The notes under the pieces are model-generated. The model was not told where the DNA came from and made no database searches. It saw nothing but the letters and a program-made list of their open reading frames with translations. The position numbers and the translations under genes are program-made. Of a stretch of DNA of 64,000 bases, positions 2,152 through 30,310 are shown in pieces. Position 1 is the first letter of the stretch. The number at the start of each line of letters is the position of its first letter. The DNA is from Agathobaculum sp. NTUH-O15-33 (GTDB lineage: Bacteria; Bacillota; Clostridia; Oscillospirales; Butyricicoccaceae), in the NCBI RefSeq assembly GCF_033193315.1, contig NZ_CP136187.1, forward strand, positions 3,479,501 through 3,543,500, given 5' to 3'.

Positions 2152-2165
2152 ATCCGTCCCCCTCC

Positions 2166-3149
2166 TTAAACCGTCCGGCGGCTGTCAAGCCAGATCGCCG
2201 CGACCAGAATAACGCCCTTCCAGACGTTTTGCATGTTCGGGCCAACGCCCAGCATGTTCAGTGCGTTGGCCATAATGGTGAACAGCGCGACGCCCAAGAC
2301 CGTATTGAGCACGCTGCCCTTGCCGCCCGACAGGCTCGTGCCGCCGATGGTGACGGACAGGATCGCGTTCGCCTCATAATTGCGGCCCGCGATCGGCAAG
2401 GCCGAACCGACGCGGCAGGTCATAATAAACGCGCCGAGAGTGGTGAGCACGCCCGTGATGATATAGATCATCATAATAATACGCTTGAGCGGGATGCCGC
2501 ACAGCTCAGCCGCGACCGGATTACCGCCTGCCAGATGGATTCCGCGCCCGATCGGCATTTTCTTCATCATAAATTGCAGGATAGCCGTGACCACGATGAA
2601 GATGATTAGCATAAACGGAATGTGCAGCACGCCGCCGTTACCGACAAACTGCGTAAACGCCGTCTCGTTCAGCGCCACATAGTTGCCGCTATTGGCGATC
2701 AGCGCCAGCGCGCCGAACACGGTCTGCATGCCAAAGGTGATGAACAGTGCGTCCGAATCATCCCGCGCGCCGCACTTGATCAAGATCAGCGCGTTGACCA
2801 GACCGCACAACCCGCCGATCGCAAGCACCACGATCAAGGATGCCGGGCCCATGCGGTTGAGCAGCAGGGCGGACACGATGCCCATGAAGGAGAAAATTCC
2901 CGCGACGGACAGGTCGATATAGCCGCCGATAATGACGAGCGTCATGCCGAGCGCCACCATGCCGAGCGGCACGAACTGCCGAACCAGACTGAGCAGGTTG
3001 CCCGGCGCAAGGAAGGACGGCTGCACGATGCAGGTGTATAGAGTAAGGATCAGAATACCGATCAGGATCAAATAATCGTTTACAAGCTTTTTCACTACGT
3101 GCCGTTTTTGCGCTTTTGCGGCAGGCTGCGCCGAATGGATCGCATTCAT
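2166..3149 (-). CDS. Ribose-type ABC transporter permease (first of two)
   Basis: A 327-residue RbsC-like permease. It has a long cytoplasmic N-terminus, then alternating hydrophobic segments with the IIGGYIDLSVAG loop and the GGTSLSGGKGS signature that characterise the family. It begins at an ATG after GGGGGAGGGGTG, which overlaps the end of the ATPase gene, so translation is probably coupled. Having two non-identical permeases instead of one RbsC is common in Clostridia sugar importers; the two proteins share motifs but are clearly diverged. The role is import of a monosaccharide, polyol or related small molecule into the cytoplasm. Confidence 0.92.
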   Translation of the reverse strand: MNAIHSAQPAAKAQKRHVVKKLVNDYLILIGILILTLYTCIVQPSFLAPGNLLSLVRQFVPLGMVALGMTLVIIGGYIDLSVAGIFSFMGIVSALLLNRMGPASLIVVLAIGGLCGLVNALILIKCGARDDSDALFITFGMQTVFGALALIANSGNYVALNETAFTQFVGNGGVLHIPFMLIIFIVVTAILQFMMKKMPIGRGIHLAGGNPVAAELCGIPLKRIIMMIYIITGVLTTLGAFIMTCRVGSALPIAGRNYEANAILSVTIGGTSLSGGKGSVLNTVLGVALFTIMANALNMLGVGPNMQNVWKGVILVAAIWLDSRRTV

Positions 3150-3155: not shown

Positions 3156-4634
3156 TCACCCCTCCCCCAGTGCGGCCGCCATAATATCCTCCGACGATAC
3201 CGCGTTAGGATCGAACTCTCCGACCACGCGGCCATCCGAAAGGACGATCACACGGTTGGACATGTTCAGCACCTCGGGCAGTTCGCTCGAGATCATGATG
3301 ATGGTGCCGCCCGATTCCGCGATCTGCTTCATCAGCATATAAATTTCGTACTTAGCGCCAACATCGATGCCGCGCGTCGGTTCATCCATGATCAGCACCT
3401 TCGGGTTGTTTTCCAGCCAGCGCGCGATCAGGCATTTTTGCTGATTGCCGCCCGAAAGCGTGCTGATGTAAACCTCCGGCCCCGGCGTTTTGACAGCGAG
3501 AGCCTTGATCTGCCGGTCGATTATCTCGCGCTCCTTCTGCTTGTCGAACACGCCGTTTCTGACAAAATGATCGAACGACGCCATGGTGATATTCGTGCCC
3601 ACATCGAAATTCAGCAGCAGCCCCTGCTGCTTGCGGTCCTCGGTCACAAAGCCGAAGCCCTCGCGCTTGGCGTCCATGGGGTTTTTGATATCGAGTTTTT
3701 TGCCGTTCAGCCAAACCTCGCCCGAATGCTTTTTGTCCGCGCCGAATACGGCGCGCACGGTCTCGGTCCTGCCCGCGCCGACCAGACCGACAAAGCCGAG
3801 GATCTCGCCTTTTTTTGCGGTAAAGCTCACGTCATGCAGCTTCTTGGTGTTGATATTTTTTACTTCCAGAATGGTTTCGCCCACATTTTGCGCGCGCGGC
3901 GGGTATTCGTTTTCGATCGACCGGCCGACCATCTCGGCGATCATTTCGCCGCGCGTCACCTGCTCGATCGGCTTGGTGCTGATAACATGGCCGTCGCGCA
4001 TGACGGTCACGCGGTTGCACAGATCGAATATCTCATCCAGCCGGTGGCTGATATAGATAATCGTAATGCCCTTGCCGCGCAAATCGTGGATGATAGCGGT
4101 CAAACGGTCCATTTCCTCGGCGGTCAGCGTGGTGGAGGGTTCATCCATGATAATCAGCTTGGAATCATAGGACAGCGCCTTGCAGATCTCCACCATCTGC
4201 TTTTCCGAGACCGAAAGATCCTCTACCGGCGTATAGGTGCCGATTTTGCTGCCGATGCTGTCCAACAGCGCCCTTGCCTTTTTATGTATCTGCCGCAGGC
4301 CGCCCAGCTCCTTAAACCGGCCGAGAAAGATGTTCTCGCCCACGTTCATCTGGTTGACCAAGTTGAATTCCTGATAAATGATCGACAGGCCCAGCCTGAG
4401 CGATTCCGTTGGTTTTTTAATGCGCATTTCCTGTCCGTCAAAAAAGATATTGCCTTCGTCCTTGCTATAAACGCCGGAAAGGATCTTCATCAGCGTTGAT
4501 TTGCCAGCGCCGTTTTCACCGACGATCCCGTGCACCTGTCCCTGATAAATATCAAACGATACCTGATCGAGCGCCACGACGTTGGTGAACCGCTTGGTCA
4601 CGTTCTGTACTGAGAGTATCACGTTAGTGTCCAC
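3156..4634 (-). CDS. Ribose-type ABC transporter ATP-binding protein (two fused ATPase domains)
   Basis: A 492-residue protein with two tandem nucleotide-binding domains, as in RbsA, MglA and XylG. Domain 1 (about 1-240) has Walker A GENGAGKS, a signature LSVSEKQ and Walker B LIIMDEP. Domain 2 (about 250-492) has a degenerate Walker A (GLVGAGRTE), the canonical LSGGNQQK and [16 protein letters not shown]. Such asymmetry is normal in this family. The start is GTG at 4634 with GGAGG nine bases upstream; an ATG at 4636 is out of frame and closes at once. It energises import through the two permeases encoded immediately downstream. A stem-loop at 4655-4702 separates it from the binding-protein gene. 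Confidence 0.94.
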   Translation of the reverse strand: MDTNVILSVQNVTKRFTNVVALDQVSFDIYQGQVHGIVGENGAGKSTLMKILSGVYSKDEGNIFFDGQEMRIKKPTESLRLGLSIIYQEFNLVNQMNVGENIFLGRFKELGGLRQIHKKARALLDSIGSKIGTYTPVEDLSVSEKQMVEICKALSYDSKLIIMDEPSTTLTAEEMDRLTAIIHDLRGKGITIIYISHRLDEIFDLCNRVTVMRDGHVISTKPIEQVTRGEMIAEMVGRSIENEYPPRAQNVGETILEVKNINTKKLHDVSFTAKKGEILGFVGLVGAGRTETVRAVFGADKKHSGEVWLNGKKLDIKNPMDAKREGFGFVTEDRKQQGLLLNFDVGTNITMASFDHFVRNGVFDKQKEREIIDRQIKALAVKTPGPEVYISTLSGGNQQKCLIARWLENNPKVLIMDEPTRGIDVGAKYEIYMLMKQIAESGGTIIMISSELPEVLNMSNRVIVLSDGRVVGEFDPNAVSSEDIMAAALGEG

Positions 4635-4724: not shown

Positions 4725-5846
4725 TCAGCCCCAGCCGGCCTCGAATTTACCGGCGTTATCGGCGGTGATCACCACGTTGGGGGTCACCGTTTCCTTGTCC
4801 ACCTTGTCGCCGTCGCCGTTGAGGTAAGCGAGCGCGGCCATGACCTGAATGGCGGTATTGGCTTTGAAATCCTGCATCGAGGTGCTCTTGAAGCAGCCGT
4901 TCTTGGCGATCTCGTCCAGCGCGCCTTGCGTGCCGTCCACAGAGAAGAACATGATCTCGTCTTCGCGGCCGACGTTTTGGGTGGACTGGATCGCCGCCAG
5001 CGTGGCCAGATCAAAATGGCTGAACACCGCGTCGATCTCGGGATATTTGGATAAATAGGACTCCATGATATTCATCGCTTCGGCGGTAGACCACTGTGCC
5101 GACTGTTCCTCGACGATTTCATATTGGGGATAATTCTGCATTACGCCGCGGAAGCCCGCCGTGCGGTTGATCTGTGCGGTCGAACCCATCATGCCGTCGA
5201 TCATAACGATCTTGCCGCCGTCTGGCAGCATTTCCATCAGGACGGACGCCATCTGCTGGGCGGCCATGGTATCGTCCGGGCCGACATAGCAGTCATACCC
5301 GCTCGTATCCGCGATGCGGTTCTGCGAGTTGATGACGACAAGTCCCGCGTCCTTTGCCTTTTTCATGGGAATGCTCAGCGCCGAAGCGTCCACCGGGTTT
5401 ACGATGATCGCATCGCAGCCCTGCGTGATCGCGTTGTTGATATGGTCGGTCTGCTTCTGCGGGTCGCTCTGTGCGTCATACCGCACCAGCTCAAACCCGT
5501 ATTCGTCAGCCGCCTGCTGCATCAATCCGGTCATAAACGCCATGGACTCATCGGAATCATCCGCGCAGCACCAAGCGAGCTTCCATTTGGAGCCGTCCTC
5601 CTTTGTGCCGCTCAAATTGCACTCGTCCGGGATGTAATCGGAAATGACCGGGGAACCCATGAAATCCTCGATATTGACAGGCTCTAAGCTTTCAAATTCC
5701 GAGGCCGTCGCCGCGGCCGCGCCGCTATCCGCCGGGCTCTCGTCCGGCGTCGCCGCCTTGCCCGCGCTATCCGCCGCGGGCGTACACCCTGTCATGCCGA
5801 GCATTGCGAGTACCGTTGTGATCGCGATCCATTTTCTCAGTTTCAT
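4725..5846 (-). CDS. Sugar ABC transporter substrate-binding lipoprotein
   Basis: A 373-residue type I periplasmic-binding-protein-like lipoprotein. The N-terminus has a basic start, a hydrophobic stretch and a lipobox (LGMTGC), followed by an Ala/Ser/Asp-rich linker. Family landmarks include NAITQGCDAIIVNPVDASAL and FFSVDGTQGALDEI, the usual ligand-lobe segments of the RbsB/Peripla_BP_4 group. The ATG at 5846 has AAGGAG eight bases upstream; a GTG three codons earlier would leave no spacing. It captures the operon substrate outside the membrane and delivers it to the adjacent permeases. Trp/Asp-rich pocket segments suggest a carbohydrate-like ligand, but the identity is not readable. Confidence 0.92.
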   Translation of the reverse strand: MKLRKWIAITTVLAMLGMTGCTPAADSAGKAATPDESPADSGAAAATASEFESLEPVNIEDFMGSPVISDYIPDECNLSGTKEDGSKWKLAWCCADDSDESMAFMTGLMQQAADEYGFELVRYDAQSDPQKQTDHINNAITQGCDAIIVNPVDASALSIPMKKAKDAGLVVINSQNRIADTSGYDCYVGPDDTMAAQQMASVLMEMLPDGGKIVMIDGMMGSTAQINRTAGFRGVMQNYPQYEIVEEQSAQWSTAEAMNIMESYLSKYPEIDAVFSHFDLATLAAIQSTQNVGREDEIMFFSVDGTQGALDEIAKNGCFKSTSMQDFKANTAIQVMAALAYLNGDGDKVDKETVTPNVVITADNAGKFEAGWG

Positions 5847-5943
5847 CTTTCGCACTCCTTTTTTTCTATCGGTTTATACTTTAAGACCCCCGCCTGCGCG
5901 GCGATCCTAAACCACGGTGAAATGACATGCGCGGGGCCGCCAT

Positions 5944-6031: not shown

Positions 6032-7474
6032 TTACTCGTACATTGAAAAGACCTTTTCGTAAATGGGCAGCACCTGATCGAGCAGTTCCAGCGAGGGGTA
6101 GCTCAAAAACGTTTTGTTTCCGCCCGCCGTGAGCACGCCGTTCGCCGCGAGAGCCATTGCGAAATCGGTCATGCGCGCGGTGGCAAACTTGCGCTTTTCC
6201 GCCTGCTGCTCGGGCGTGTACTCCGGGAAGGTCGCCACGTGCTTCATGCCGGTCACATCGATCTGCATCACCGAGCCGGTGGACGAAATAATGGCGGGCA
6301 GATCATATTTGTTGGCAAGATCGGTCAGCTTCTGCGCGAACGTCTTGCCCGCCGCGTTCAGTTTGTTCGGGACATCCTCGCGCTGCAGCTTGCACAGCGT
6401 TGCGTAGGCCGCGGCGCAGGTCAGCGGATTTGCCGACAGGGTGCCGCCGATGACGATCTTCTTGCCGGCCACGTGTGACACGCCCGCCGTCAGCACGCTC
6501 ATGACGTCCTCGTTGCCGCCGATGCCGCCCGCGCCGGCCAGACCGCCGCCGATGATCTTGCCGAAGATGGTGATATCCGCGCGGGTATCGAAAAACTCCT
6601 GCGCGCCGCCCAGCGCCAGACGGAACCCGGTGACGACCTCGTCGTAGATCAGTACCACGCCGTACTTGTCGCACAGCTTGCGCACGCCCTTGTGGTATTC
6701 CCGTGTGGTAGGCAGCACGCCGGAATCCTGCCCCATACCTTCCATGATGAAGCAAGCCGTGCCGCCCTTTTTCTCGTTATCGATAAAGCGCTGCTCGAGT
6801 TCGTTCAGGTCGTTGACCATAACGGCGGAGACATATTTGAAATTCTCATCCGGCACGCCGACCGCAAAGGAATTCATGGAACCGCAGTACCGCATATCGT
6901 AAATGAGCTGATCCGAATTGCCGTGGAAGTTGCCTTTCAGCTTGACGATGTTCAGCTTACCGGTGAAGGCGCGCGCCGCGCGAATGGCGAACATGCAGGC
7001 CTCCGTGCCCGAGCCGAGCATACGGAACTTATCCACGGAAGGGAAAAACTCTTTGACCTTTTGCGCGACCTTGTATTCGTTCTCGTGGTACAGGCCGGTC
7101 AAATACCCGGTCTTGCTCAGGCAGTCCTCGATCGCCGCGCGCACATCCGGATCGTTGTTGCCCAAAATAGACGGGCCGCCCGCGCCGATGAAATCAACAT
7201 AGCGGTTGCCGTCGATATCGTACAGATACGCGCCTTCGCCCTTGACGCAGTTGAGCGCGAACGGATAGTTGTTCGCCAGATTATGCTGCACGCCGCTCGG
7301 GATCAGGCTTTTCGCCGCGTCGATCGTCTTTTTCGACGCGGCGCAGTTTTTTTCAAACCAGTCGAGGCATTCCTTTTCCGCCGCGGGCTTCAGGCGCTTC
7401 GTGTTTTCCAGCACATATTTGGCGCGGGCGTGCACGGCCTCGTAATCAAAGCCGTCAAGGTAATCCAGTTTCAT
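6032..7474 (-). CDS. Class III aminotransferase (glutamate-1-semialdehyde aminomutase-like)
   Basis: A 480-residue PLP enzyme of aminotransferase class III, closest in layout to HemL-type proteins. Visible motifs are GSGTEACMFAIRAARA (PLP phosphate binding), IYDEVVTGFR (Asp contacting the pyridine nitrogen), FGKIIGGGL (Schiff-base Lys) and GGTLSANPLTCAAA. An N-terminal extension of about 60 residues precedes the usual PSGVQHN start of the fold. It is not in a haem-biosynthesis context. It sits between the kinase and binding-protein genes of the catabolic operon and shares that operon with glutamate dehydrogenase, so transamination of an amino sugar, amino polyol or amino acid substrate with 2-oxoglutarate recycling is plausible. 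Aminomutase activity cannot be excluded. Confidence 0.88.
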   Translation of the reverse strand: MKLDYLDGFDYEAVHARAKYVLENTKRLKPAAEKECLDWFEKNCAASKKTIDAAKSLIPSGVQHNLANNYPFALNCVKGEGAYLYDIDGNRYVDFIGAGGPSILGNNDPDVRAAIEDCLSKTGYLTGLYHENEYKVAQKVKEFFPSVDKFRMLGSGTEACMFAIRAARAFTGKLNIVKLKGNFHGNSDQLIYDMRYCGSMNSFAVGVPDENFKYVSAVMVNDLNELEQRFIDNEKKGGTACFIMEGMGQDSGVLPTTREYHKGVRKLCDKYGVVLIYDEVVTGFRLALGGAQEFFDTRADITIFGKIIGGGLAGAGGIGGNEDVMSVLTAGVSHVAGKKIVIGGTLSANPLTCAAAYATLCKLQREDVPNKLNAAGKTFAQKLTDLANKYDLPAIISSTGSVMQIDVTGMKHVATFPEYTPEQQAEKRKFATARMTDFAMALAANGVLTAGGNKTFLSYPSLELLDQVLPIYEKVFSMYE

Positions 7475-7489: not shown

Positions 7490-8983
7490 CTACTTTTTAT
7501 CCGCATTTAACTTTCTGTACATATCCTCCAGCGCCGTGTAGCTTTCGCGGTACAGGGCGTAGAGCCGGTCGTACCGGCTTTGCAGCCGGGGGCGGGGGAT
7601 CAGCGTGGGCCCGCATTGCACCACGCGGTCTAAAACGCCAAAGCCTTCTTTGGAGCCAAGGCCCGTTTCGATACAGGCCTGTAAGCCCAAATTACCCGCA
7701 AAGCGGGGATTTTGCAGCGGCGTCACCGGCGTGTCCAGCACATCGGCCAGCATTTGCACAAAGGTCTCGCTCGACATGCCGCCGCCGATGCCGCGCAGAA
7801 AGTTGGGGTCCCACCCGTGCTGCGCCGCGTGGATGTCGCGCATCCACCGCAGGTTGAAACACACGCCCTCCATCACCGCGCGGGCGATATGCCTGCGCTC
7901 CGTCCCGCGCGACAGATTGAGGAGCGAGGCGCGCACCGTGGTATTGGAGATCGGCGCGGAAGCGCCGGCCAGAAACGGCAGGAAAAGAACGTTTTCACGG
8001 TCGCCGTCCTTCATGGCCTGACGGATCTCCTGATCCATCTCGGCAAACACGTCCTTGCCCTGCGCGGTTTCCTTGCCATAGTAGGTCTGCAACAGGTAAT
8101 CGATACAGCTGCCGCCCGAATCGGTATCGTAAAAATGGTAGCGCAGCCCCTCCACCGGAGAGGGCATACGCCCCGGCGCGCGCGTGAACGCCGAGGTGCC
8201 CACGGCCAGCCACGCGCTGGTGCCGATGTAGAGGTGCGCGTCTCCGGGCCGGATGCAGCCGGTGCCCAGCATAGCGGTCGCGTGGTCGGTACAGCCGCCG
8301 AACACGGGAATTTCAGCCGCCAGACCGAGTTCGCGCGCCGCCTGCGCGGTCAGCGCGCCCACCCGCTCGGTCGAACCCACGATGCGGTCGGGCACCAGCC
8401 GCCGCGGAAAGCCGATCAGGTCAAACATGGCGGGGTCCCAGCTGCGGCGATCCAGATCGACCAGACCCGTCGCGCGCGAGCCGGTGAACTCATACGCCCA
8501 CTCGCCGGTCAGCCGGTAAAACAGGAACGCAGATACGTCGAGCATATAGCGCGCCTCGTCCACCAGATCGGGCTCGTGCTGCAGGAACCACAAAAGCTTG
8601 GCGAGCACATTTTTGCCGCTGAAGCGCTTTTCGCCCAGCTTGCGGTTGATTTCGCGCGCCTGCTTGTCGGCGCGGCCATCCATCCACATGACGCAGTCGG
8701 AAAGCGGCTTGCCGCGATCATCCACAAAGATGATCGTCGTCGCGGTCTGCGCCATCGCCATGCCCGCGATCCGGCTCGGCGCTGCGCCCGTGCGCGCCAT
8801 TAAGCGGCGCGTCGCCTTGCACATGGCCTGCCAAAGCTCCTCCGGCTTTTGCATTGCCCAGCCGAGCCGGGGGAAATAGGTGGGGTACGGCTCGTTTTCC
8901 ACGCCAACGAGCGTGAACTGCTCGTCGGTCAGCGCCGCCTTGACGCTGCCCGAGCCAAAATCATAAGTCAGACGGTATTTCAT
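7490..8983 (-). CDS. FGGY-family carbohydrate kinase (xylulokinase-like)
   Basis: A 497-residue sugar kinase of the FGGY family. The N-terminal domain starts with the phosphate-binding DFGSGSVKAAL loop. The C-terminal domain carries GGCTDHATAMLGTG and the adenosine-site GIGGGMSSETFVQMLADVL. The length matches xylulose and related ketose kinases. It would phosphorylate a ketose or polyol after import, upstream of the class II aldolase encoded 1 kb away. It lies 15 bp upstream of the aminotransferase gene and 22 bp downstream of the polyol dehydrogenase gene. Substrate specificity within FGGY proteins is poorly predictable from sequence, so no symbol is given. Confidence 0.92.
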   Translation of the reverse strand: MKYRLTYDFGSGSVKAALTDEQFTLVGVENEPYPTYFPRLGWAMQKPEELWQAMCKATRRLMARTGAAPSRIAGMAMAQTATTIIFVDDRGKPLSDCVMWMDGRADKQAREINRKLGEKRFSGKNVLAKLLWFLQHEPDLVDEARYMLDVSAFLFYRLTGEWAYEFTGSRATGLVDLDRRSWDPAMFDLIGFPRRLVPDRIVGSTERVGALTAQAARELGLAAEIPVFGGCTDHATAMLGTGCIRPGDAHLYIGTSAWLAVGTSAFTRAPGRMPSPVEGLRYHFYDTDSGGSCIDYLLQTYYGKETAQGKDVFAEMDQEIRQAMKDGDRENVLFLPFLAGASAPISNTTVRASLLNLSRGTERRHIARAVMEGVCFNLRWMRDIHAAQHGWDPNFLRGIGGGMSSETFVQMLADVLDTPVTPLQNPRFAGNLGLQACIETGLGSKEGFGVLDRVVQCGPTLIPRPRLQSRYDRLYALYRESYTALEDMYRKLNADKK

Positions 8984-9005: not shown

Positions 9006-10043
9006 TTAAATCTCGATCACAACCTTGCCCGCCGTGCCCTTGACCATCAGCTCGATGCCGTCCAGCAGCTGCTCGAGCGGCAGGCGGTGGGTGACCAGCT
9101 TGTCGATCGGGATAATGCCGCTTTCAATGATCTTGACCGCCAGCGGGAAGGTGCCCTTGGTGATGTAGGTGCCGCGAATGGTCAGTTCCTTTTCCGTGAT
9201 CGGATACTGCGGAATATTGACCGTGGCCGTCTGGTTGACGCCGAACACCGCGATGCGCGCGCCCTTTTTGGCAATCTGTATGGCGGTGGGCAGCATCACG
9301 CCGACCGCGTCCACGATCAGATCCGCCCCCTGCGGCGCGTAAGCGCGAAGCGCGGCTTCCAGATCGATCTCCTTGGGGTTGATCACTTCGTCCGCGCCGA
9401 GCGCGAGCGCCAGCGCGCGGCGGTATTCGCCGGGCTCGGAAACCGTGACGTGCGCGCCCATGGCCTTGTACAGCATGGCGAAGATCAGCCCGATCGGGCC
9501 GCCGCCCAGCACGACGACCTCGTCGCCCGGATGCGCGGGCAGCGTGGTCGTGCCGTTCAGCACACAGGCGAGCGGCTCGGCCAGCGCCGCGATGTGGCTG
9601 GGCACCTTGCTGTCGATGACGTAGACCATGCGCTCCTCGATGCAGAGATACTCGGCCATCGCGCCGTCGATCCGGTCGCCGATGTGCCGGAAGTTTTCAC
9701 ACAAATTGATGTGCCCCGTGCGGCACGAAGGGCATTTGCCGCACCAGATATTCGGGTGAACGACCACCTTGTCGCCCACCTTGCAGTTGGACACGTCGCT
9801 GCCGACCGCCTCGACGATGCCGCAGCCCTCATGACCGACGATGATGCCGTCCACAAAGTCAAACGCGGGCGGATCGGCCAGCGCGCGCACGTCGGTGCCG
9901 CAAATGCTGACCGCCTCGATGCGGATGAGCACCTCGTCCGGCCGGGTGACGGCCGGTTTGGGCACCTGCGTGATCGGGCAGCGCGCCGCGCCGACGCCGT
10001 TCTTATTGAACTTCGCGCCCTTCATCATTTCTGTATTCGTCAT
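9006..10043 (-). CDS. Zinc-dependent alcohol/polyol dehydrogenase (MDR family)
   Basis: A 345-residue medium-chain dehydrogenase of the sorbitol/threonine dehydrogenase type. Catalytic-zinc residues are visible in SICGTDVR and GHEGCGIVEAVG, the structural-zinc cysteines in CGKCPSCRTGHINLCENF, and the Rossmann GGGPIGL motif near residue 175. ATG 10043 is chosen because GGGGAG lies eight bases upstream; an in-frame GTG at 10052 would overlap the stop of the aldolase gene. It probably interconverts a secondary alcohol and ketone of a sugar or polyol with NAD(P). The tight junction with the aldolase gene suggests translational coupling. Confidence 0.92.
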   Translation of the reverse strand: MTNTEMMKGAKFNKNGVGAARCPITQVPKPAVTRPDEVLIRIEAVSICGTDVRALADPPAFDFVDGIIVGHEGCGIVEAVGSDVSNCKVGDKVVVHPNIWCGKCPSCRTGHINLCENFRHIGDRIDGAMAEYLCIEERMVYVIDSKVPSHIAALAEPLACVLNGTTTLPAHPGDEVVVLGGGPIGLIFAMLYKAMGAHVTVSEPGEYRRALALALGADEVINPKEIDLEAALRAYAPQGADLIVDAVGVMLPTAIQIAKKGARIAVFGVNQTATVNIPQYPITEKELTIRGTYITKGTFPLAVKIIESGIIPIDKLVTHRLPLEQLLDGIELMVKGTAGKVVIEI

Positions 10044-10048
10044 ACGGC

Positions 10049-10972
10049 TCACTCCCCCATGAATTCGTGGTCGTCATTTCGCCCGGCGGACGGAACGATG
10101 CCCTTGCACTGCGCCATGGCCACGCAGGGATTATGGCCCGACGTGCCGAACAGGCGCAGCTTGGCTTTGGCCACTTCCTTGACCTTTTCCCGGGCATAGG
10201 CCGAGCAGATGCGCGGCTCCTTTTCGCCCTTGTTAAACATTTCCTTCATTGCGGCGGACCAAGCGTATTTCAGCTCGGTGCCGACGTTGATCTTTGTAAT
10301 GCCGCATTCAATCGCGCGCCGGATCATTTCATCCGGCGTGCCCGATCCGCCGTGCAGTACGAGCGGCACGTCGACCGCGGCGCGCAGCTGCTCGATGCGC
10401 TCAAAGTTGATCTTGGGCGGCTTGGTATAAACGCCATGCGCCGTGCCGACCGCGGGGGCCAGCGAATCAACGCCGGTCTCTTCGATCAGGCGGACGCAGT
10501 CCTCGACGCGGGCGGTCTCGTCGCCGTCGTCCAGCCGGTCGTCGTCCACACCGGCGCGGAAGATACGGCCGATCTCGGCCTCCGTGTACACGCCGACCGA
10601 TTTTGCCACCCGAACGACCGCTTTGGTCAGCGCGATGTTTTCCTCCAGCGGCAGGGCGGAACCGTCCACCATGACCGAATGAAAATCCCATTTGATACAG
10701 CGCATGATCAGATCGTACTCGGTCGCGTGATCCAGATGCAGATAGGCGCAAACCTTGCTTTGCGCGATCGCCTCGAGGCTTGCCGCGGCGAGCACCTTGT
10801 CATGCAAAAAGGGAACGTACGCGCTGTAAGGCTGCACGATCACGGGGGCGTTTTCCGTTTCCGCCGCTTCCAGCACGGCGAATAGCACGTCGAGATTGTA
10901 ATAATTGAACGCGGGCACGGCGTAACCGCGCATGCGCGCGTCCGCCATGATGACGTTAGGGGATACCAGCAT
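10049..10972 (-). CDS. Class II fructose/tagatose-bisphosphate-type aldolase
   Basis: A 307-residue class II, zinc-dependent aldolase of the FbaA/GatY/KbaY family. Zinc-ligand histidines are visible in HLDHAT, VGTAHG and LVLHGGSG, and the phosphate-binding INVGTEL follows. The length matches ketose-bisphosphate aldolases. In this operon it would cleave the phosphorylated intermediate made by the FGGY kinase into a triose phosphate and an aldehyde; the adjacent aldehyde dehydrogenase could oxidise the latter. That route is inferred. The start at 10972 has AAAGGAG upstream, and the stop abuts the dehydrogenase start. Confidence 0.92.
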   Translation of the reverse strand: MLVSPNVIMADARMRGYAVPAFNYYNLDVLFAVLEAAETENAPVIVQPYSAYVPFLHDKVLAAASLEAIAQSKVCAYLHLDHATEYDLIMRCIKWDFHSVMVDGSALPLEENIALTKAVVRVAKSVGVYTEAEIGRIFRAGVDDDRLDDGDETARVEDCVRLIEETGVDSLAPAVGTAHGVYTKPPKINFERIEQLRAAVDVPLVLHGGSGTPDEMIRRAIECGITKINVGTELKYAWSAAMKEMFNKGEKEPRICSAYAREKVKEVAKAKLRLFGTSGHNPCVAMAQCKGIVPSAGRNDDHEFMGE

Positions 10973-10991: not shown

Positions 10992-12749
10992 TCACCGGCC
11001 GTGCCGCGCGATCAGCGCGACCGTTGTCTTTAAATCGTTATCCGCTTGAATGCCCATGTCGCACAGCAGGGGGCCCACCTCGGTCGGCTCCGCGTCGCCC
11101 GGCAGAATGGTGTTGAGCTTGCCGCCCATGAAGATCACGTATTCCCTGCCGCGTTCGGCCGCGAGCTGTTTGAGCTGCCTGCCGTAATCGAGCGCCTGCC
11201 CGTTGTGGCAGCTGATGCCAAGGTAGGGCGTGCCGTCCTCGTCCGCCGCGTCCAGCACGTCGACCGGGTCCATGTCCACGCCGATGTTCACGGTTTCCGC
11301 GCCCATCTCACGCAGCACGCCGTCCACCAGCATCAAGCCGTAGGCGTGCGCGTCGCCGGACGCGACGACGATCTGCTTGCCGGTCAGACTGCCTGCAAGG
11401 CCTTCCGCCTTTAGCTCGGTCACGATCTCGTCGCGCATCTGATTGGTCTGGCGGCCCAACACGGTCGGATAGAACGGCGTCACCTCGCTCTTCTTGCCGT
11501 CCACAGTGGAGGAGTGGAACGCGCTTTCTAGCCTTTGCGGCGCGAACTTTTTGAGCATGAGCAGCATTTCAAGCGGATCGCCGGTGTCGATCCCGGCCTC
11601 TTCAAAAGCCGTCATTGCATTTCGGAAATAGCGCTTTGCCTCTTGCACCATCACGTCCTTCATATGAATGATGGGCGTCCAGTCGATCAGCGGCATCCAT
11701 TCGTCCGCCTTTTCCTCCACGCGCTTGCCGCAGGCGTAGATATTCAGCAGCTCCTGCAGGGTGGGCACGGCGATTTTTTCCGTGATCGAAACCGGGTTGA
11801 TGCCGAGCGACATATGGAACTTTTTTTCCGCGCAGATTTCCAGCAGCATTTCCTGCGCGGCGAAGCCGTAGTTGCCGTCGATATCGTGATCCCACTGCAT
11901 GTTGGTGGAACCGTTGATATAGGTCAGCACGGGCTGTTCATCAGTGCCCATGAGTTCGTGCAGGGCCAGCGCCACCGCGATGCGGGTGTGCCCCTCGCTC
12001 AGCAGGCCGCCGAACGAAATGACGTAGCGCGCGCCGCACAATCTGGTGCAGATATAATGCTCGATCAGCGCGTAGCCGACGTAGGACGCGCAGTCCATAA
12101 AATAGCCGGGAAAGCTGTCGTCCAGATAGGTCTCGACCGCGAACATATCGTCCCGCTTGCTGGCCATCACGCCGAGCGAGGTCACCATATCGGAGTAGCG
12201 CTTGACGTGATCGGTGAAGCCGGGATAATCCCATAGGAACTGGCCGAACGAGCCGACGCGCACCGCGCCCGCCTTGAGCGCGTTTACCGTGGTCTCGATC
12301 GAGTTCGGGCAGACCAGATGGTGATCGTTCAGGCTGATATCGATGGGTGCGGCGTTCCGCAGCGCCATCCAGTCGTCCAGTCCGTCCAGCATAAAGCTGG
12401 TCGTCTTGGGCGCGTTTTCGCGGTATTCCCGGGGCAGGGCCACGTTGCCGCTCGGGATATGCAGCATCGAGCCGAGCTTGAAGCCCGTGCGCTTTTGAAA
12501 TTCATCTATTTTCTTGACCGCGGCGACCTCGTCCTCCATGGTGGCCAGCCCCATCAGCAGCGTCCAGTAAATCTTGCCCTCGCGCTGATAAGCCTTCTTA
12601 AACTCCATGTGGTTTTTGTAGCCCTCGTACCGGGTCAACGGCGCTTCAAAGCTGTTTCCCAGTTCGATCCCCTGCCGCACCAGCGCGCGGCCATCCGCGT
12701 GGGGCGCGGGCTTGAGGCTGCGGATGTATTCAATGGTTGCGGGATTCAT
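10992..12749 (-). CDS. Cobalamin-binding mutase-like protein (N-terminal barrel-like domain plus C-terminal B12 domain)
   Basis: A 585-residue protein. The C-terminal 140 residues contain a full base-off/His-on cobalamin-binding signature: DAHAYG, then 41 residues, S-C-H, then 26 residues, GG. The spacing equals the DxHxxG-x41-SxL-x26-28-GG rule of glutamate, methylmalonyl-CoA and related mutases, with His in place of the usual Leu. The first 430 residues look like an enzymatic alpha/beta barrel (segments NSIETTVNALKAGAVRVGSF and GARYVISFGGLLSEGHTRIA), but I cannot assign that domain to a named mutase. Fusion of catalytic and B12 domains is unlike two-subunit glutamate mutase. The start at 12749 follows AGGAGGGTGG; longer readings would run into the upstream gene. 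It is embedded in a sugar operon, which is unusual. A carbon-skeleton rearrangement or aminomutase step is inferred. Confidence 0.82.
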   Translation of the reverse strand: MNPATIEYIRSLKPAPHADGRALVRQGIELGNSFEAPLTRYEGYKNHMEFKKAYQREGKIYWTLLMGLATMEDEVAAVKKIDEFQKRTGFKLGSMLHIPSGNVALPREYRENAPKTTSFMLDGLDDWMALRNAAPIDISLNDHHLVCPNSIETTVNALKAGAVRVGSFGQFLWDYPGFTDHVKRYSDMVTSLGVMASKRDDMFAVETYLDDSFPGYFMDCASYVGYALIEHYICTRLCGARYVISFGGLLSEGHTRIAVALALHELMGTDEQPVLTYINGSTNMQWDHDIDGNYGFAAQEMLLEICAEKKFHMSLGINPVSITEKIAVPTLQELLNIYACGKRVEEKADEWMPLIDWTPIIHMKDVMVQEAKRYFRNAMTAFEEAGIDTGDPLEMLLMLKKFAPQRLESAFHSSTVDGKKSEVTPFYPTVLGRQTNQMRDEIVTELKAEGLAGSLTGKQIVVASGDAHAYGLMLVDGVLREMGAETVNIGVDMDPVDVLDAADEDGTPYLGISCHNGQALDYGRQLKQLAAERGREYVIFMGGKLNTILPGDAEPTEVGPLLCDMGIQADNDLKTTVALIARHGR

Positions 12750-12768: not shown

Positions 12769-13647
12769 TTATTCAAACAGTCCGGTCGCGCGCAGATACT
12801 TGACTTCGCCATGAATGGCGGCGATCGCGTTTTCGCGCGTGGTGTGCGGTTCGAGCGTGCACAGGCCGTCATAGCCGTCCGCCGCCAAACGGTGCACCAG
12901 ACCGTCGATGTTGACCACGCCGTCCTTGGCCTCGCAGTAATAGATCGTGCCCGGCTCCATCGTCATCGCGCCGCCGAACCATTTGGTGTCCGGACAGAAG
13001 CCGCCCGGCCGGTACAGCCGGCCGTTTTTGATATGTACATAGGCGATGTGCTCGCGCAGCAGCTCGTAGGCGTAGGGGAACGCTTCGCAAGAGGCGTGAT
13101 AGTAGTTGGTCGCGTCAAAATTCGTCTTGAAAAACGGGGAATCGAACGCCTGCATGATCGCCAGCATGTTTTCCGGCGTGCGGCTCGCGTCGCCCGCTTC
13201 GTTTTCCAGCGCCAGCGTAATGCCCAGCTCCGCCGCGCGCTTTAGCGCCGCGTCGAAATAGTCGTGCAGGCGGCCCAATTCGGGCGTCGTGCCCGGCTGG
13301 ATCTTATCCGAATAGTGGTTGACGACCTTTGCCCCGAAGAACGCGGCCGCCTCGACCGTGGCGACCAGTTCTCTCGAAAACGCCTCCGGGTCGCTGGTCA
13401 TTTTAGTATCCAGCCCCAGACCGGACGATACCGAGCCGACCAAAAGCCCCGCGTCCGCGATCTGCCGCTTTGCCGTTTGCAGGTCCTTATCGGAGAACGC
13501 GTAAAAGTTTACCGGCGCTGCGCCGTTCGGCGCAAGGTTGGAGCCCCAAAGCTCTAAATATGTAATGCCGAAGTCCTTTGCCATCGGCAGCAGCACCGCG
13601 AGCGGTTCGCCCGCGAAGGTATTGGTATTAAGACCGATCTTCATCAT
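12769..13647 (-). CDS. Sugar phosphate isomerase/epimerase (TIM barrel), second operon copy
   Basis: A 292-residue xylose-isomerase-like TIM-barrel protein. Barrel-end metal-ligand segments are LALENEAGD, KTNFDATNYY, YVHIKNGRLY and CTLEPHT, the Glu/Asp/His/Glu set expected for ketose epimerases and IolE-like dehydratases. It starts with MMKIGLNTNTF (two ATGs, 13647 and 13644) and lies 19 bp upstream of the B12 protein gene. It is clearly different from the family member at 297-1163. In context it probably epimerises or isomerises a sugar, amino sugar or keto-polyol ahead of the kinase and aldolase steps; this is inference. Confidence 0.87.
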   Translation of the reverse strand: MMKIGLNTNTFAGEPLAVLLPMAKDFGITYLELWGSNLAPNGAAPVNFYAFSDKDLQTAKRQIADAGLLVGSVSSGLGLDTKMTSDPEAFSRELVATVEAAAFFGAKVVNHYSDKIQPGTTPELGRLHDYFDAALKRAAELGITLALENEAGDASRTPENMLAIMQAFDSPFFKTNFDATNYYHASCEAFPYAYELLREHIAYVHIKNGRLYRPGGFCPDTKWFGGAMTMEPGTIYYCEAKDGVVNIDGLVHRLAADGYDGLCTLEPHTTRENAIAAIHGEVKYLRATGLFE

Positions 13648-13671: not shown

Positions 13672-15117
13672 TCAGAGATTGCCCAGCACGTTGCGCAGCA
13701 CATAGGACTTTTCCTGCGTGAACTCCAGCAGCGTGTGGGACGAACCCTCGCGCCCAACGCCGCTCTTTTTATAACCGCCGAACGGCATGGTCGCGGTGCG
13801 GTAGTTGCTGCCGCCGTTCACGATGACGCTGCCAGCCTGCACGCGCTCGGCAAAGGAAATGGCTTTTGCCATGTCCCGTGAAAACACGGCGCTGTTGAGT
13901 CCGTAGGGGCAGTTGTTCACAAGCGCCAGCGCTTCTTCCGCCGTGCGGAAGGTCATGATCGGGAACACCGCGCCGAAGATCTCCATATCGCGGGCCACAT
14001 CCATTGCGCCGGTCACATTGGTCAGCACGGCGGGGATCAAAAAGTTTTTGCCCTGCGGCTCGCCGCCGTAGACCAGCTTCGCGCCCTGCTCCACCGTGCG
14101 GCGAATCTGCCGCACCACCTCGTCGCGCGCCTTTTCCGAGATCATGCCGCCAATATCCATCGAGCGGTCCATGGGGTCGCCGATTTTCAGCCCCTTCAGC
14201 GCTAGGATCAGCTTGTCGGTAAACGCGCCGAAAACGCTCTCGTGCACGATAAAGCGCTTGGAAGCGCAGCACACCTGCCCCGCGTTATTGGCGCGGCCTT
14301 CCAGCGCCTGACCGATCGTCCAATCGATATCCGCGTCGTCCATGACCACAAAGGCGTCGTTCCCGCCCAGCTCAAAATAGCAGCGCGTCAGGTTTTTCGC
14401 CGCGACCTCGGCAATGTGCGCGCCGGTCTCGGTGCCGCCGGTCATGGTGATCGCCGCGATGCCGGGGTGCGACACCAGCGTGTCGCCGATGACCGAACCG
14501 CGCCCGGTGACGACCTGCGCCGCCCCCGCGGGCACGCCCGCCTCGTGCAGGCAGTCCACCAGCCGGATGATGGCGAGCGGGCAATCGGAAGGCGGCTTGA
14601 TGATCACCGCGTTGCCCGCCGCGAGCGCGGGCGCGATCTTGTGCCCGCACAGCTCGACCGGGAAATTAAACGGCAGCAGACAGGCGACCACGCCGACCGG
14701 CTCGTGCCGCGTGACGATCATATCGCCGTGGCAGTTGGTCGCGTCCGTCCCGTTCGGGAGGGAAACGCCGTATAGGTGGCTCGCCTTGTCGCAGTAGCTC
14801 TCCACCAAGGCCGCCACGGTGTCGAACTCCTCCTCCGCTTCGGCGATGCGCTTGCCGTTTTCCCGGCATAGCAGCTCGCCCAGCTCGGCGCGTCGGCTAA
14901 GCAGCAGCTCGGCGAAATGCCGTAAGATACGGTTGCGCTCGGTCTGCGGCTTGGCCGCCCACTCGCGCTGTCCCTCTGCCGCTGTCTCCACCGCGCGGTC
15001 GATATCCGCTTTCGTCAGCGCGGGCACGGTGTCGATCGCTTCGCCGGTTGTCGGATCGAAGACCGTCAGCGCTTCACGCTCCTTTTCAACGGTCCCGCCG
15101 CCAAGTTGAACGTACAT
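13672..15117 (-). CDS. NAD(P)-dependent aldehyde dehydrogenase (semialdehyde-dehydrogenase-like)
   Basis: A 481-residue aldehyde dehydrogenase superfamily member. The active-site segments are ELGGNDAFVVMDDADI (catalytic Glu in ELGG) and NAGQVCCASKRFIVHE (catalytic Cys), followed by EIFGAVFPI. The length and motifs resemble succinate-semialdehyde or glycolaldehyde/lactaldehyde dehydrogenases. The ATG at 15117 has GGAGG nearby. A 72-bp gap to gdhA contains a 19-bp sequence (15148-15166) nearly identical to one in the gdhA promoter, so this gene may have additional regulated initiation. It would oxidise an aldehyde from aldol cleavage or transamination; the substrate is unknown. Confidence 0.92.
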   Translation of the reverse strand: MYVQLGGGTVEKEREALTVFDPTTGEAIDTVPALTKADIDRAVETAAEGQREWAAKPQTERNRILRHFAELLLSRRAELGELLCRENGKRIAEAEEEFDTVAALVESYCDKASHLYGVSLPNGTDATNCHGDMIVTRHEPVGVVACLLPFNFPVELCGHKIAPALAAGNAVIIKPPSDCPLAIIRLVDCLHEAGVPAGAAQVVTGRGSVIGDTLVSHPGIAAITMTGGTETGAHIAEVAAKNLTRCYFELGGNDAFVVMDDADIDWTIGQALEGRANNAGQVCCASKRFIVHESVFGAFTDKLILALKGLKIGDPMDRSMDIGGMISEKARDEVVRQIRRTVEQGAKLVYGGEPQGKNFLIPAVLTNVTGAMDVARDMEIFGAVFPIMTFRTAEEALALVNNCPYGLNSAVFSRDMAKAISFAERVQAGSVIVNGGSNYRTATMPFGGYKKSGVGREGSSHTLLEFTQEKSYVLRNVLGNL

Positions 15118-15189: not shown

Positions 15190-16449
15190 TTACGGCCATA
15201 CGCCGCGAATCTTCTTCGCCTCCACCACGCGCTGGATCGCGATCATATACGCCGCCTCGCGCAGGGTGACCTTGCTTTCCTCCGCCATTTCGCAAACCTC
15301 GCCGAAGGAGCGGTCCATGACGTGCTTGAGCTTTGTGTTGGTTTCGGTCTCTTCCCAGTAGATGGCCTGCTGGTTTTGCACCCATTCCAGATAGGATACG
15401 ACCACGCCGCCCGCGTTGCAAAGGATATCGGGAACGACGGTGACGCCGCGCTCCGCCAAGATCTTATCCCCTTCGAGATTCGTCGGGCCGTTGGCCGCTT
15501 CGACAACGATCTTGCAGCGCAGGGTGGCGGCGGTGTCCTCATTGATCTGGTTCTCCATTGCCGCCGGGATCAGCACCGTGCATTCGGCCGCGAGCACCTC
15601 GGCGTTGGTGATGTGCGAAACGCCCTCCGCCTCGTAATCGGCAAACAGCTTATCGGGATTTTTCTTGGTAAAATCGAGCAGCTCATAGATGTTCAGGCCG
15701 TCCTTGCAGTACAGGCCGCCCGATACGTCGCTGACCGCCACGATTTTAAAGCCCTCTTTATAAAGCAGACGCGCCGCCGTGCCGCCCACATTGCCGAAGC
15801 CTTGAATCGCAATGGCCGCGTCCTCAAAAGCAATGTCCATTTTCTTTAAAATGTTCTTGGTGGTGAACATCACGCCGCGTCCGGTGGCCGACATACGGCC
15901 CGGAATCCCGTGAATGGCAAGCGGCTTGCCGGTGACGACGCCGGGCATGCTGTGTCCTTTCAGCATCGAATAAGTATCCATGATCCATCCCATGATCTCG
16001 GGGTTGGTATTGACATCGGGTGCGGGAATATCCTGATCCGGCCCGATGATGGGCGCGATCATCGCGGTGAAGCGGCGGGTCATATGCCGCAATTCGGATT
16101 TGGAAAGCTGCCTCGGATCGACCACCACGCCGCCCTTCGCGCCGCCGTACGGAATGTTGACGACCGCGCACTTGAAGGTCATCCACGCGGCAAGCGCCTT
16201 AACTTCGTCCTTATTCACCGCGGGGTGGAAGCGGATACCGCCCTTGGCCGGGCCGCGCGTGGTCGAGTGCTGCACGCGGTAGCCTTCAAATACGCGGATA
16301 GTGCCGTCGTCCATCCGCACGGGGATGGAGACCTGCAGCTCGCGCTCCGGGTGCTTGAGCGTTTCATAGTCCGCCGGTGCGTAGCCGAGTTTTTGCGCCG
16401 CGTTTTCCACAACAGTGATCACATTGTCAAACGGATTATAGCGTTCCAT
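15190..16449 (-). CDS. gdhA: Glutamate dehydrogenase (Glu/Leu/Phe/Val dehydrogenase family)
   Basis: A 419-residue amino acid dehydrogenase with KGGIRFHP, MTFKCAVVNIPYGGAKGG (catalytic Lys region) and the Rossmann IQGFGNVGG motif. The length and PDVNTNPEIMGWIMD segment fit hexameric NAD-type glutamate dehydrogenase. As the first gene after the operon promoter it can remove or recycle amino groups passed to 2-oxoglutarate by the class III aminotransferase encoded downstream. A housekeeping anabolic role is the alternative, but its placement at the head of a catabolic operon favours deamination. The leader upstream is about 145 nt with a GC-rich stem. Confidence 0.92.
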   Translation of the reverse strand: MERYNPFDNVITVVENAAQKLGYAPADYETLKHPERELQVSIPVRMDDGTIRVFEGYRVQHSTTRGPAKGGIRFHPAVNKDEVKALAAWMTFKCAVVNIPYGGAKGGVVVDPRQLSKSELRHMTRRFTAMIAPIIGPDQDIPAPDVNTNPEIMGWIMDTYSMLKGHSMPGVVTGKPLAIHGIPGRMSATGRGVMFTTKNILKKMDIAFEDAAIAIQGFGNVGGTAARLLYKEGFKIVAVSDVSGGLYCKDGLNIYELLDFTKKNPDKLFADYEAEGVSHITNAEVLAAECTVLIPAAMENQINEDTAATLRCKIVVEAANGPTNLEGDKILAERGVTVVPDILCNAGGVVVSYLEWVQNQQAIYWEETETNTKLKHVMDRSFGEVCEMAEESKVTLREAAYMIAIQRVVEAKKIRGVWP

Positions 16450-16899: not shown

Positions 16900-18003
16900 T
16901 TATGCTTTGCGTTTGACCAGCATCACGCCGCAGGACAGTTCCTCCAGCGCCAAATTGAGCAGCCCGCTGACATACTCCTCGTGGATATTGGCCCTGAGGA
17001 TGATCTGCGGCATGTGCTGCGGGGCAATCAGCCGAAGGCAGCGCGCACGGATCTCCTCCACCGTCTTTTTATCAAAATAACCGCCCGTCAGCGCGACGAT
17101 CTCCGGGTTGAGCACCGGCACGATCGAACCGATGATATGGCTCATCGACTCGACCGACGCATCCACCGGATCGATTTCCTTGGAGCGCACCACCGGCAGG
17201 AAGGACACCTCGCCGGCAAACCCGGAAAATCCGCGCAGGATATGACCGCCGGACACAAAGCCCGCGCCAAAGTTGATGGAAAGGTTGATCAGCGTGCGCT
17301 GTTCCTCACTCACCGGCATGGTGGGGTCTTCCCGCAGCATCTGCTCCAGCCCGGTCTGCGCGTCGATCGGCGAATAGATGAACGCAATGGTGGTGTCGCG
17401 CCCGCCGCAGTTGTTCTGGTAAAAACCGTAAGCGGCGGCGTTCATATCGTTTTCGACAAGTATTTTGATATCCGGGAACTTTTCCTGCAGCATGCTGCGC
17501 AGCGGCAGCCCCATCAAATCGACGAAGTTACAAAGGCCGATCACATCGTTTGTGATATAGCCCGGTATGCCGATGGAAGCCACGCGCAGCTTCGCGTGCT
17601 TTTCTGTCAGGCGGCGGATGGTATCTTCCAGCACATCATAGGTGGCCCGTTCGATCTCCCGCGTGGATTCCTCCTGCACCTCGCCCAGCAGGTTGCACAC
17701 CATGGAGGAAAGCGTTACCTTGCCGCGGTCGCTTGCCACATAAACGCAGGCGATGAGCGAGTAGTTGCCGTTGTAAACATAGCTTTTCGCCGGGCGGCCA
17801 TAACCGCCCGAGGTCACCGCCGCTTCCATTACCTCGCCGCTTTCGCAGAGCTCGTTGAGGATCTTGCCGCAGGTCGCCACGCTGATCTCGGTCGCCTCCG
17901 CGATCTGCGCCTTGGTGGCCGTGCCCAGCCCCTTGAGGGCGGATTTGATCAGTTCAACGTTTATTTCCTTCACTTTTGTGATATCGTTCCGAATAGTGTG
18001 CAT
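16900..18003 (-). CDS. ROK-family transcriptional regulator
   Basis: A 367-residue protein with an N-terminal winged helix-turn-helix (about 10-75, including TKAQIAEATEISVATCGKIL) and a sugar-kinase-like ROK domain (ILVENDMNAAAYG; INFGAGFVSGGHILRG; GFAGEVSFLP). The zinc-binding cysteine cluster of true ROK kinases is not visible, as in some regulator members. It lies directly upstream of, and in the same direction as, the gdhA-led operon, separated by the element at 16711-16876, so it is the likely repressor, released by a sugar-like ligand. ATG 18003 is preferred; a GTG three codons upstream lacks spacing. Confidence 0.88.
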   Translation of the reverse strand: MHTIRNDITKVKEINVELIKSALKGLGTATKAQIAEATEISVATCGKILNELCESGEVMEAAVTSGGYGRPAKSYVYNGNYSLIACVYVASDRGKVTLSSMVCNLLGEVQEESTREIERATYDVLEDTIRRLTEKHAKLRVASIGIPGYITNDVIGLCNFVDLMGLPLRSMLQEKFPDIKILVENDMNAAAYGFYQNNCGGRDTTIAFIYSPIDAQTGLEQMLREDPTMPVSEEQRTLINLSINFGAGFVSGGHILRGFSGFAGEVSFLPVVRSKEIDPVDASVESMSHIIGSIVPVLNPEIVALTGGYFDKKTVEEIRARCLRLIAPQHMPQIILRANIHEEYVSGLLNLALEELSCGVMLVKRKA

Positions 18004-18069
18004 GTATTTCACCCTGTTTCAAGGCCCCTGTTTCGGCGCCGTTAAAAATTTCATTATTTTCCTATTCAC

Positions 18070-28798: not shown

Positions 28799-28813
28799 AA
28801 GGAGCGAACCGCC

Positions 28814-30304: not shown

Positions 30305-30310
30305 TTTTAC

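Follow-up and report, generated by a model that had tools for sequence, protein, structure and literature searches.

A putative single-chain branch of the adenosylcobalamin mutases, paired with HyuA-type ASKHA ATPases in Agathobaculum sp. NTUH-O15-33

INTRODUCTION

To our knowledge, few B12-dependent mutase reactions are known, and their substrates are acids, coenzyme A (CoA) esters, or amino acids. Glutamate mutase is built from two chains, epsilon (GlmE) and sigma (GlmS), and has MutL (GlmL) as its known companion; proteins of the MutL/GlmL type are thought to free stalled enzyme of damaged cobalamin. Methylmalonyl-CoA mutase (MCM) and isobutyryl-CoA mutase (PF01642) carry a barrel and a C-terminal B12 domain in one chain of about 700 residues, and 2-methyleneglutarate mutase (Mgm) of Eubacterium barkeri is also a single chain with a C-terminal B12 domain. 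Ornithine 4,5-aminomutase (OAM) and lysine 5,6-aminomutase share the adenosylcobalamin (AdoCbl) barrel fold. Here we analyzed a gene of Agathobaculum sp. NTUH-O15-33 that lies at positions 10992 to 12749 of a 64,000-nucleotide stretch of contig NZ_CP136187.1 (3,479,501 to 3,543,500; hereafter the window), and whose product had been read, in a preliminary description made from the sequence, as a B12-dependent mutase-like enzyme whose base-off/His-on AdoCbl domain is fused to a 430-residue catalytic region that could not be placed. We consider the protein a single-chain branch of this mutase class because fold prediction, a motif for the glutamate that acts on the adenosyl group, and the one-to-one match, across the genome, of mutase genes with ASKHA ATPase genes all support the assignment; we put its probability at about four in five, a figure that refers to the mutase class and not to the substrate.

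RESULTS

The gene and its C-terminal B12 domain

The interval contains a single open reading frame (ORF), which lies on the minus strand, starts with an ATG at 12749 preceded by an AGGAGG ribosome site, and encodes 585 residues, and the plus-strand reading is broken by stops. Comparison with a near-identical copy of the gene (L019) gave nonsynonymous (dN) and synonymous (dS) distances of 0.0030 and 0.038 (NG86), and the mutase gene is therefore under purifying selection; dS was saturated against the 80%-identical copy at L046.

At the C terminus, the preliminary description had recognized the spacing DxHxxG-x41-SxH-x26-GG, with His instead of Leu after the Ser. Both points proved accurate, since the protein reads D466AH468AYG471-x41-S513CH515-x26-G542G543. 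Pfam matched residues 461 to 552 to the B12-binding family PF02310 (E = 9.9e-11, above the cut-off), which was the sole family listed at E ≤ 10, and the pattern, with any residue allowed at the Leu/His place, arose in 4 of 200,000 letter shuffles of the protein. The motif was then followed through 21 aligned members, which a tree divides into a focal clade of 12 and a sister group of 9. D466, H468, S513, G542, G543, and the 41-residue spacing are kept in all 21 and G471 in 20, and the last spacing is 26 residues in 18 members and 22, 27, and 28 residues in the other three. The place of the Leu is taken by His in one, Phe in two, and Tyr in six members of the sister group; in the window protein the His is no error, because all 12 members of the focal clade carry it.

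A mutase TIM barrel is predicted for the N-terminal region

Structures of the window protein and of a relative 51% identical to it (L020) were predicted with AlphaFold2, with nine sequences behind each model, and were compared with the PDB by Foldseek. The predicted local distance difference test score (pLDDT) was 73.2 for the window protein and 79.9 for L020, and the predicted template modeling (TM) scores were 0.76 and 0.83, respectively. MCM gave the best matches to both models, and OAM, glutamate mutase E, and methionine synthase were among the next. With the L020 model, all 37 chains found at E ≤ 0.001 were B12-dependent proteins, with MCM and OAM at the top, and they included chains of GlmE (6h9e_B, 5.6e-6; 1cb7_B, 9.1e-6) and of lysine 5,6-aminomutase (1xrs_A, 4.9e-5; 8t0v_A, 7.6e-5). 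Since these GlmE and lysine aminomutase chains have no B12 domain and still match, it is the barrel itself that is matched. With the window model, 61 chains were found at E ≤ 0.001, and among the best 50 of the 61 GlmE scored 2.9e-8 versus 1.2e-4 for pyruvate carboxylase, the best fold unrelated to B12.

The preliminary description had proposed such a comparison with mutase barrels, together with searches of hidden Markov model families. The fusion that it described stands, and the region that it found unplaceable now has a mutase TIM barrel as its predicted fold, in a layout that resembles the E and S components of glutamate mutase in one chain and not a fusion to a foreign domain. The family searches returned the B12-binding family and not that of GlmE (PF06368); the barrel region has no Pfam match at E ≤ 10, and no significant sequence match in the PDB was obtained beyond the B12 domain and the linker.

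A conserved Glu-x4-Pro motif at the end of predicted strand 8

A residue that distinguishes mutases from methyltransferases is a Glu placed against the adenosyl group. Glutamate mutase has it at E330, OAM at E338, and MCM at E370 (PMC4413051). In the family studied here, E324 and P329 are invariant in all 21 aligned members; the L013 paralogue has a His directly before the motif Pro. The counterpart in MCM reads SRDEALALP in five of six sequences and SKDEALSLP in the sixth, and that of OAM reads TPDEGRNVP in three of three sequences, such that E-x3-[VLI]-P is common to all MCM and OAM sequences. GlmE carries this pattern, as E330-x4-P335, in four of five rows (two of the rows are 99% identical), and an hhalign alignment to GlmE, which is not significant, pairs E324 with E330. 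Weak as a lone motif, Glu-x4-Pro carries weight because it is invariant, is placed at the end of strand 8, and lies within a mutase fold. Glu324 thus appears, by motif and predicted position, to be the putative equivalent of the adenosyl-contacting Glu of known mutases, at a place where the local confidence of the model is low.

One of the GlmE relatives collected for this comparison (L064:1369-2817:+, G082:C55; 40% identity) also matched, in the region of strand 8, the model of methylmalonyl-CoA mutase.

Each of the four mutase genes is paired with a HyuA-like ASKHA ATPase

The 4.0-Mb genome, assembled in one contig, encodes four full-length members of the family, namely the window copy and three paralogues at 61, 46, and 43% identity. 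It also contains exactly four HyuA-like (PF01968) genes, each at most about 13 kb from a different mutase gene (HyuA-like/mutase positions of about 3,477/3,491, 817/824, 3,178/3,182, and 3,561/3,558 kb). The partner of the window operon (L055:11499-13157:-) is situated just past the left end of the window on the same strand. Like the HyuA subunit of hydantoinases and oxoprolinases, the partner genes give strong PF05378 and PF01968 matches, and the nearest solved chain of the L013 copy is 5-oxoprolinase (6yra). Unlike HyuA, they stand one to one with mutases, show, in the case of the L055 ORF, a short N-terminal match to MutL (38.8 bits over 48 residues; cut-off 27), and are found in a genome where HyuB (PF02538) had 0 matches, the same search being positive in 6 of 14 control genomes. 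A six-frame search of the genome yielded no MutL above the cut-off and three matches below it.

An ASKHA gene of the HyuA kind was present in 11 of the 12 focal-type contexts, the exception being L058. In the sister group, a MutL-type gene adjoins three members (L044, L045, and L057), and that of L044 (read as L033, the same place) matches PF13941 with an E value of 6.9e-141; the L027 contig is too short to judge. MutL-like ORFs, recognized by eye, also occur upstream of GlmE. We infer that the HyuA-type ASKHA protein serves as the mutase reactivase in the place of MutL. As for the partners themselves, the L055 ORF is without a middle stretch of roughly 90 to 100 residues found in its paralogues, and the G051 copy matches in two separate pieces.

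Comparison with described mutases

The system resembles glutamate mutase in the spacing of the B12 motif, the predicted barrel, the Glu-x4-Pro motif, and the ASKHA partner. It differs in that one chain of 585 residues replaces epsilon and sigma, the focal clade has a HyuA-type ASKHA protein, the arginine claw is not recognizable, and the profile similarity is not significant. Glutamate mutase proper was rejected, as PF06368 was unmatched in the protein (E ≤ 10) and in the genome (E ≤ 0.001) and the protein is a single chain. With MCM and isobutyryl-CoA mutase, the protein shares the order of barrel and B12 domain in one chain, the top Foldseek matches, and the DEALALP motif, but it is shorter (585 versus about 700 residues), and no CoA-handling gene was recognized among the named genes of the operon; PF01642 matched neither the protein (E ≤ 10) nor the genome. 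The aminomutases are alike in fold and, in the case of OAM, in the ITPDEGRNVP motif, whereas the Pfam listing of the window protein contains no pyridoxal phosphate-binding domain; no PF16552 aminomutase partner was detected in the genome, nor any OAM match. By these tests, which covered the glutamate mutase, MCM, and aminomutase families, the protein is neither glutamate mutase nor MCM.

Conserved residues that may bear on the substrate

Glutamate mutase holds its substrate by R66, R100, and R149 (PMC9545868). Across the 21 members, R256 is the sole column of Arg or Lys (19 R, 2 K). The 12 focal members keep R87, K198, and R256 in the barrel region plus three or more basic columns in the linker and B12 domain, positions that are tied to GlmE by an alignment that is not significant. 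R94, near predicted strand 2, is invariant in the sister clade and is replaced by S, C, G, T, L, or V in the focal clade, which suggests that the focal-clade substrate lacks a carboxylate that the substrate of the sister group has, as far as residues aligned to GlmE below significance can tell. The acidic and amide residues D142, D211, D219, N293, and E324, and E408 ahead of the B12 domain, are invariant in all 21.

Distribution of the family

Among the matches, the nearest named relative is Butyricicoccus faecihominis (99% identity in L019). A scan of genome contigs yielded nine loci, four of them from a B. faecihominis strain and the other five from an uncultured Butyricicoccus, a Lachnospiraceae metagenome-assembled genome (MAG), a Eubacterium MAG, Firmicutes bacterium UBA6806, and a Eubacteriales MAG. 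At E ≤ 1e-40, the family was present in 4 of 391 genomes sampled from the class and 3 of 398 sampled from the phylum, the window genome being counted in both. Among the 61 family-group genomes, 51 matched at E ≤ 0.001, nearly all in the B12 domain alone; full-length members were found in G000, G051, G056, and G024 and a truncated one in G048. Relatives of 27 to 30% identity occur on Rhizobiales plasmids (9 of 72,556 plasmid records, 7 covering at least 80% of the query), and no stretch of the viral contigs was matched by patterns built from the single window protein.

Four of the nine plasmid records were used in the tree, from which further rhizobial plasmid hits, L039, and the truncated gene of L048 were left out. 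Neither the 21 rows nor the 12 focal-type contexts include L015, L019, L021, and L022, which are the other B. faecihominis strain's copies of the four window-genome genes, or L023, which is on the same contig as L047. Two rows of the sister group, L027 and L043, form long branches of unsure position, and the contigs of L016 and L027 are short, such that missing neighbors carry little weight there.

Several relatives deserve mention in their own right. The gene of L048 (8880-9320:+, G048:C10) is cut to about 146 residues and keeps glutamate dehydrogenase (GDH), aldehyde dehydrogenase (ALDH), and xylose-isomerase-like genes beside it; the remaining operon genes are not in the stretch read, and the copy is apparently decayed. 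Two tandem sister-type genes, the first seen in part, are located on the short contig L027 (1-2969:+, G024:C62). The rhizobial relatives (L037:12160-24455, L038, L040, and L041) carry, wherever an annotation spans the whole gene, no name beyond "cobalamin-dependent protein" or "hypothetical protein"; they neighbor a pyrroline-5-carboxylate reductase-like protein and a GntR regulator. L037, L038, and L041 additionally have a flavin adenine dinucleotide-dependent oxidoreductase and a branched-chain amino-acid ABC-type importer there. Among the papers listed by full-text searches of open-access literature, we found no account of this family. The "novel B12-dependent family" of PMC2667541 was set aside, as it has an N-terminal B12 domain and an opine dehydrogenase neighbor.

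The operon and its neighbors

Features of the window are collected in Table 1.

Table 1. Coordinates of the mutase gene, its parts, and the surrounding genes
Feature	Position in window	Strand	Basis
Single-chain AdoCbl-type mutase (putative), 585 aa: N-terminal TIM barrel, helical linker, C-terminal B12 domain	10992..12749	-	ORF, Pfam, predicted model, Foldseek
Predicted mutase TIM barrel, residues about 1-355	11685..12749	-	Two AlphaFold2 models, Foldseek to GlmE 1cb7_B/6h9e_B
T323-E324-K-I-A-V-P329, end of predicted strand 8, putative Glu acting on adenosyl group	11763..11783	-	Conservation and motif
B12-binding Rossmann domain, residues about 455-585	10995..11387	-	PF02310 at 461-552 and predicted model
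D466-A-H468-A-Y-G471, cobalt-ligand His motif	11337..11354	-	Sequence motif
S513-C-H515 ... G542-G543, remainder of B12 motif	11121..11213	-	Sequence motif
ROK-family regulator-like gene	16900..18012	-	Sub-threshold NagC/Mlc hits
Glutamate dehydrogenase	15190..16449	-	Model hits below equivalog cut-offs
Aldehyde dehydrogenase	13672..15117	-	Nearest model lactaldehyde dehydrogenase, below cut-off
Xylose-isomerase-like TIM barrel protein	12769..13647	-	PF01261
Class II ketose-bisphosphate aldolase	10049..10972	-	TIGR00167 above cut-off
Zinc alcohol dehydrogenase, IolM/Tdh-like	9006..10052	-	Below cut-offs
FGGY-family sugar kinase, xylulokinase-like	7490..8983	-	Below cut-off
Class III aminotransferase	6032..7474	-	PF00202; nearest model glutamate-1-semialdehyde aminomutase, below cut-off
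RbsB-like sugar-binding protein	4725..5855	-	Below cut-off
RbsA-like sugar ABC ATPase	3156..4634	-	Cluster C1; name recognized from sequence
Two RbsC-like permease genes (1189-2151 and 2166-3149)	1189..3149	-	Cluster C6; name recognized from sequence
Second xylose-isomerase-like protein	297..1163	-	-

The same-strand gene run continues past the left end of the window with a short-chain dehydrogenase/reductase, a third xylose-isomerase-like protein, and the HyuA-like ASKHA gene. The kinase, aldolase, and isomerase neighbors named in the preliminary description were found (FGGY kinase, class II aldolase, and xylose-isomerase-like protein); it had omitted the aminotransferase, GDH, and ALDH. In the 12 focal-type contexts, a class III aminotransferase and an ALDH each occur in 8 and GDH or alanine dehydrogenase (AlaDH) in 7, these counts leaving aside an L014-locus aminotransferase seen as a contig-edge match in the copy L022. 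In G051, whose mutase is 80.6% identical, the gene set and most of the gene order are kept. A sugar ABC importer and an aldolase accompany two of the four paralogues (the window operon and L014), and no RbsA-like ATPase was present at the L013 and L011/L012 loci in the stretches read. The common core of the loci is amino-group removal and aldehyde oxidation, not sugar transport.

Because the aminotransferase, GDH/AlaDH, and ALDH recur as neighbors, the pathway probably handles an amine. The sugar-derived or amino-polyol substrate suggested earlier is compatible with the operon, whereas these recurrent genes point to an amine and the sugar genes are limited to the two loci. The neighbors do not single out a substrate, since the core common to the four loci is partial and the genes around it vary; our guess is that the operons catabolize an amine or an amino-polyol.

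ROK-like genes are also found at the L013, L014, and L048 loci, and cluster C9 holds those of L013, L014, L020, L021, L022, and L048; the window gene was masked in the clustering by a longer plus-strand ORF, and its tie to the L048 gene was made by eye. At the L014 locus, an 812-residue UvrA-like ATPase (L014:7066-9504:+) is located between the L014 mutase gene and a mannose-6-phosphate-isomerase-like gene; the ATPase and the isomerase-like gene were named by eye. Elsewhere in the window are a galE/galT/galM-like set (27809-31357:+) and an Rnf-type electron-transport operon (48364-53666:-), both recognized by eye, and a second alanine dehydrogenase gene (58038-59216:-) that shares 72% identity with its counterpart beside the L012 mutase.

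Two sister-group loci, L044 (9452-16114:-) and L045 (672-19501:+), have a mutase and a MutL-type gene beside a HypD/PFL2-type glycyl radical enzyme and its activase, the L044 enzyme scoring 672.9 bits against a HypD cut-off of 1100. These stretches also hold 2-oxoacid:ferredoxin oxidoreductase-like genes, an aminotransferase, and an HpaB-family protein, to which 4-hydroxybutyryl-CoA dehydratase is related. The set looks like an undescribed amino-acid fermentation with two radical enzymes.

DISCUSSION

Several observations weigh against reading the protein as an AdoCbl mutase. TIM barrels of non-B12 proteins reach E ≤ 0.001 with the window model from rank 35 on, and methionine synthase scores 7.0e-9 (9cbq) with that model, above GlmE, and 2.4e-7 with the L020 model. 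The global TM-scores are at most about 0.5 (full-length mutases) with a large root mean square deviation, and pLDDT drops below 50 in active-site loops of both the window model (281-296 and 323-326) and the L020 model (284-299 and 324-331). Profile-profile comparison was significant neither with GlmE (E = 0.014, probability 3%; 0.29 with alignment A2) nor with MCM (E = 0.093, with the alignment off the Glu motif), whereas the control pair of GlmE and MCM was detected at 2.4e-6. The pattern E...[VIL]P occurs in 63,047 of 200,000 shuffles of the window protein, shuffling the invariant letters of the family yields such a Glu/Pro pair in 1,101 of 100,000 cases, and the fifth, divergent GlmE row (L064) has Gln at 330 with the Pro kept. 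Furthermore, no ASKHA gene lies beside the four rhizobial members, L043, or L058 in the stretches read, and no RNA family, cobalamin riboswitch included, reached the Rfam threshold in the window, L055, L011, L013, or L014.

If the protein is an AdoCbl mutase, its cofactor would be AdoCbl and its chemistry would start with homolysis. His468 of the C-terminal domain would replace the lower ligand of cobalt, and the B12 domain would cap the N-terminal TIM barrel. Where strand 8 ends, Glu324 would hold the adenosyl ribose and aid Co-C homolysis upon substrate binding. The adenosyl radical would then abstract a hydrogen from the substrate, a group, whose identity we can only guess, would move between neighboring carbons, and the hydrogen would be given back. 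The HyuA-type ASKHA ATPase, encoded in the same gene run just off the window, would most likely free stalled enzyme of damaged cobalamin. In the pathway, the aminotransferase and GDH would take off the nitrogen, ALDH would oxidize the carbonyl product, and, in the window operon, the kinase, isomerases, and class II aldolase would process a sugar-like part of the substrate.

What the enzyme acts upon can be read in different ways. Possibly, though at less than even odds, the protein is an amino-acid mutase of the glutamate mutase or 2-methyleneglutarate mutase kind whose substrate is a common amino or omega-amino acid, with the sugar genes belonging to a neighboring pathway or feeding the carbon skeleton in afterwards. 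The frequent aminotransferase and GDH or AlaDH genes of the focal-type contexts argue for this, as do the fermentation-like gene sets with a MutL-type gene at L044 and L045, the branched-chain amino-acid importers near rhizobial members, and the L013 locus, where the stretch read contains no sugar ABC importer. The residues speak otherwise: an arginine claw is not recognizable, with R256 as the only basic column common to all members and the sister group's R94 replaced in the focal clade, and sugar ABC importers and a class II aldolase are found at two of the four paralogue loci. More tentatively, and with some doubt on our side, the family could be a new AdoCbl-mutase branch acting on neutral, sugar-derived amino-polyols, with no carboxylate clamp and no CoA, in which four parallel pathways of one gut bacterium would each possess their own HyuA-type ASKHA reactivase replacing MutL.

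Other kinds of B12 chemistry appear less probable. An eliminase with a mutase barrel, working as an ammonia lyase or dehydratase on an amino-alcohol or polyol, would release an aldehyde for ALDH and ammonia for GDH, in agreement with the frequency of these genes and with invariant barrel residues that are acidic or polar rather than basic (D142, D211, D219, N293, and E324). The aminotransferase would then have no role, and the B12 eliminases known to us are base-on and without a DxHxxG domain; we regard this explanation as improbable. A corrinoid-dependent methyltransferase, likewise composed of a TIM barrel and a B12 domain but moving methyl groups, is very improbable: it would account for the methionine synthase folate-cobalamin chains among the Foldseek matches and for the MetH B12 domains that are the best PDB sequence matches of the family profile, but the Pfam listing at E ≤ 10 contains no B12-binding_2 cap domain, AdoCbl mutases rank first for both models, MutL-type genes adjoin three relatives, and the adenosyl-Glu motif is present in all 21 members.

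Taken together, assignment to the AdoCbl mutases leaves a new reaction plausible and unproven, and the window mutase may perform a B12 reaction that nobody has described. Represented by four paralogues in a human-gut species that makes butyrate, this fused family would extend gut metabolism by B12-dependent catabolic reactions, and the HyuA-type ASKHA proteins, if the inferred function is true, would be a second kind of mutase reactivase.

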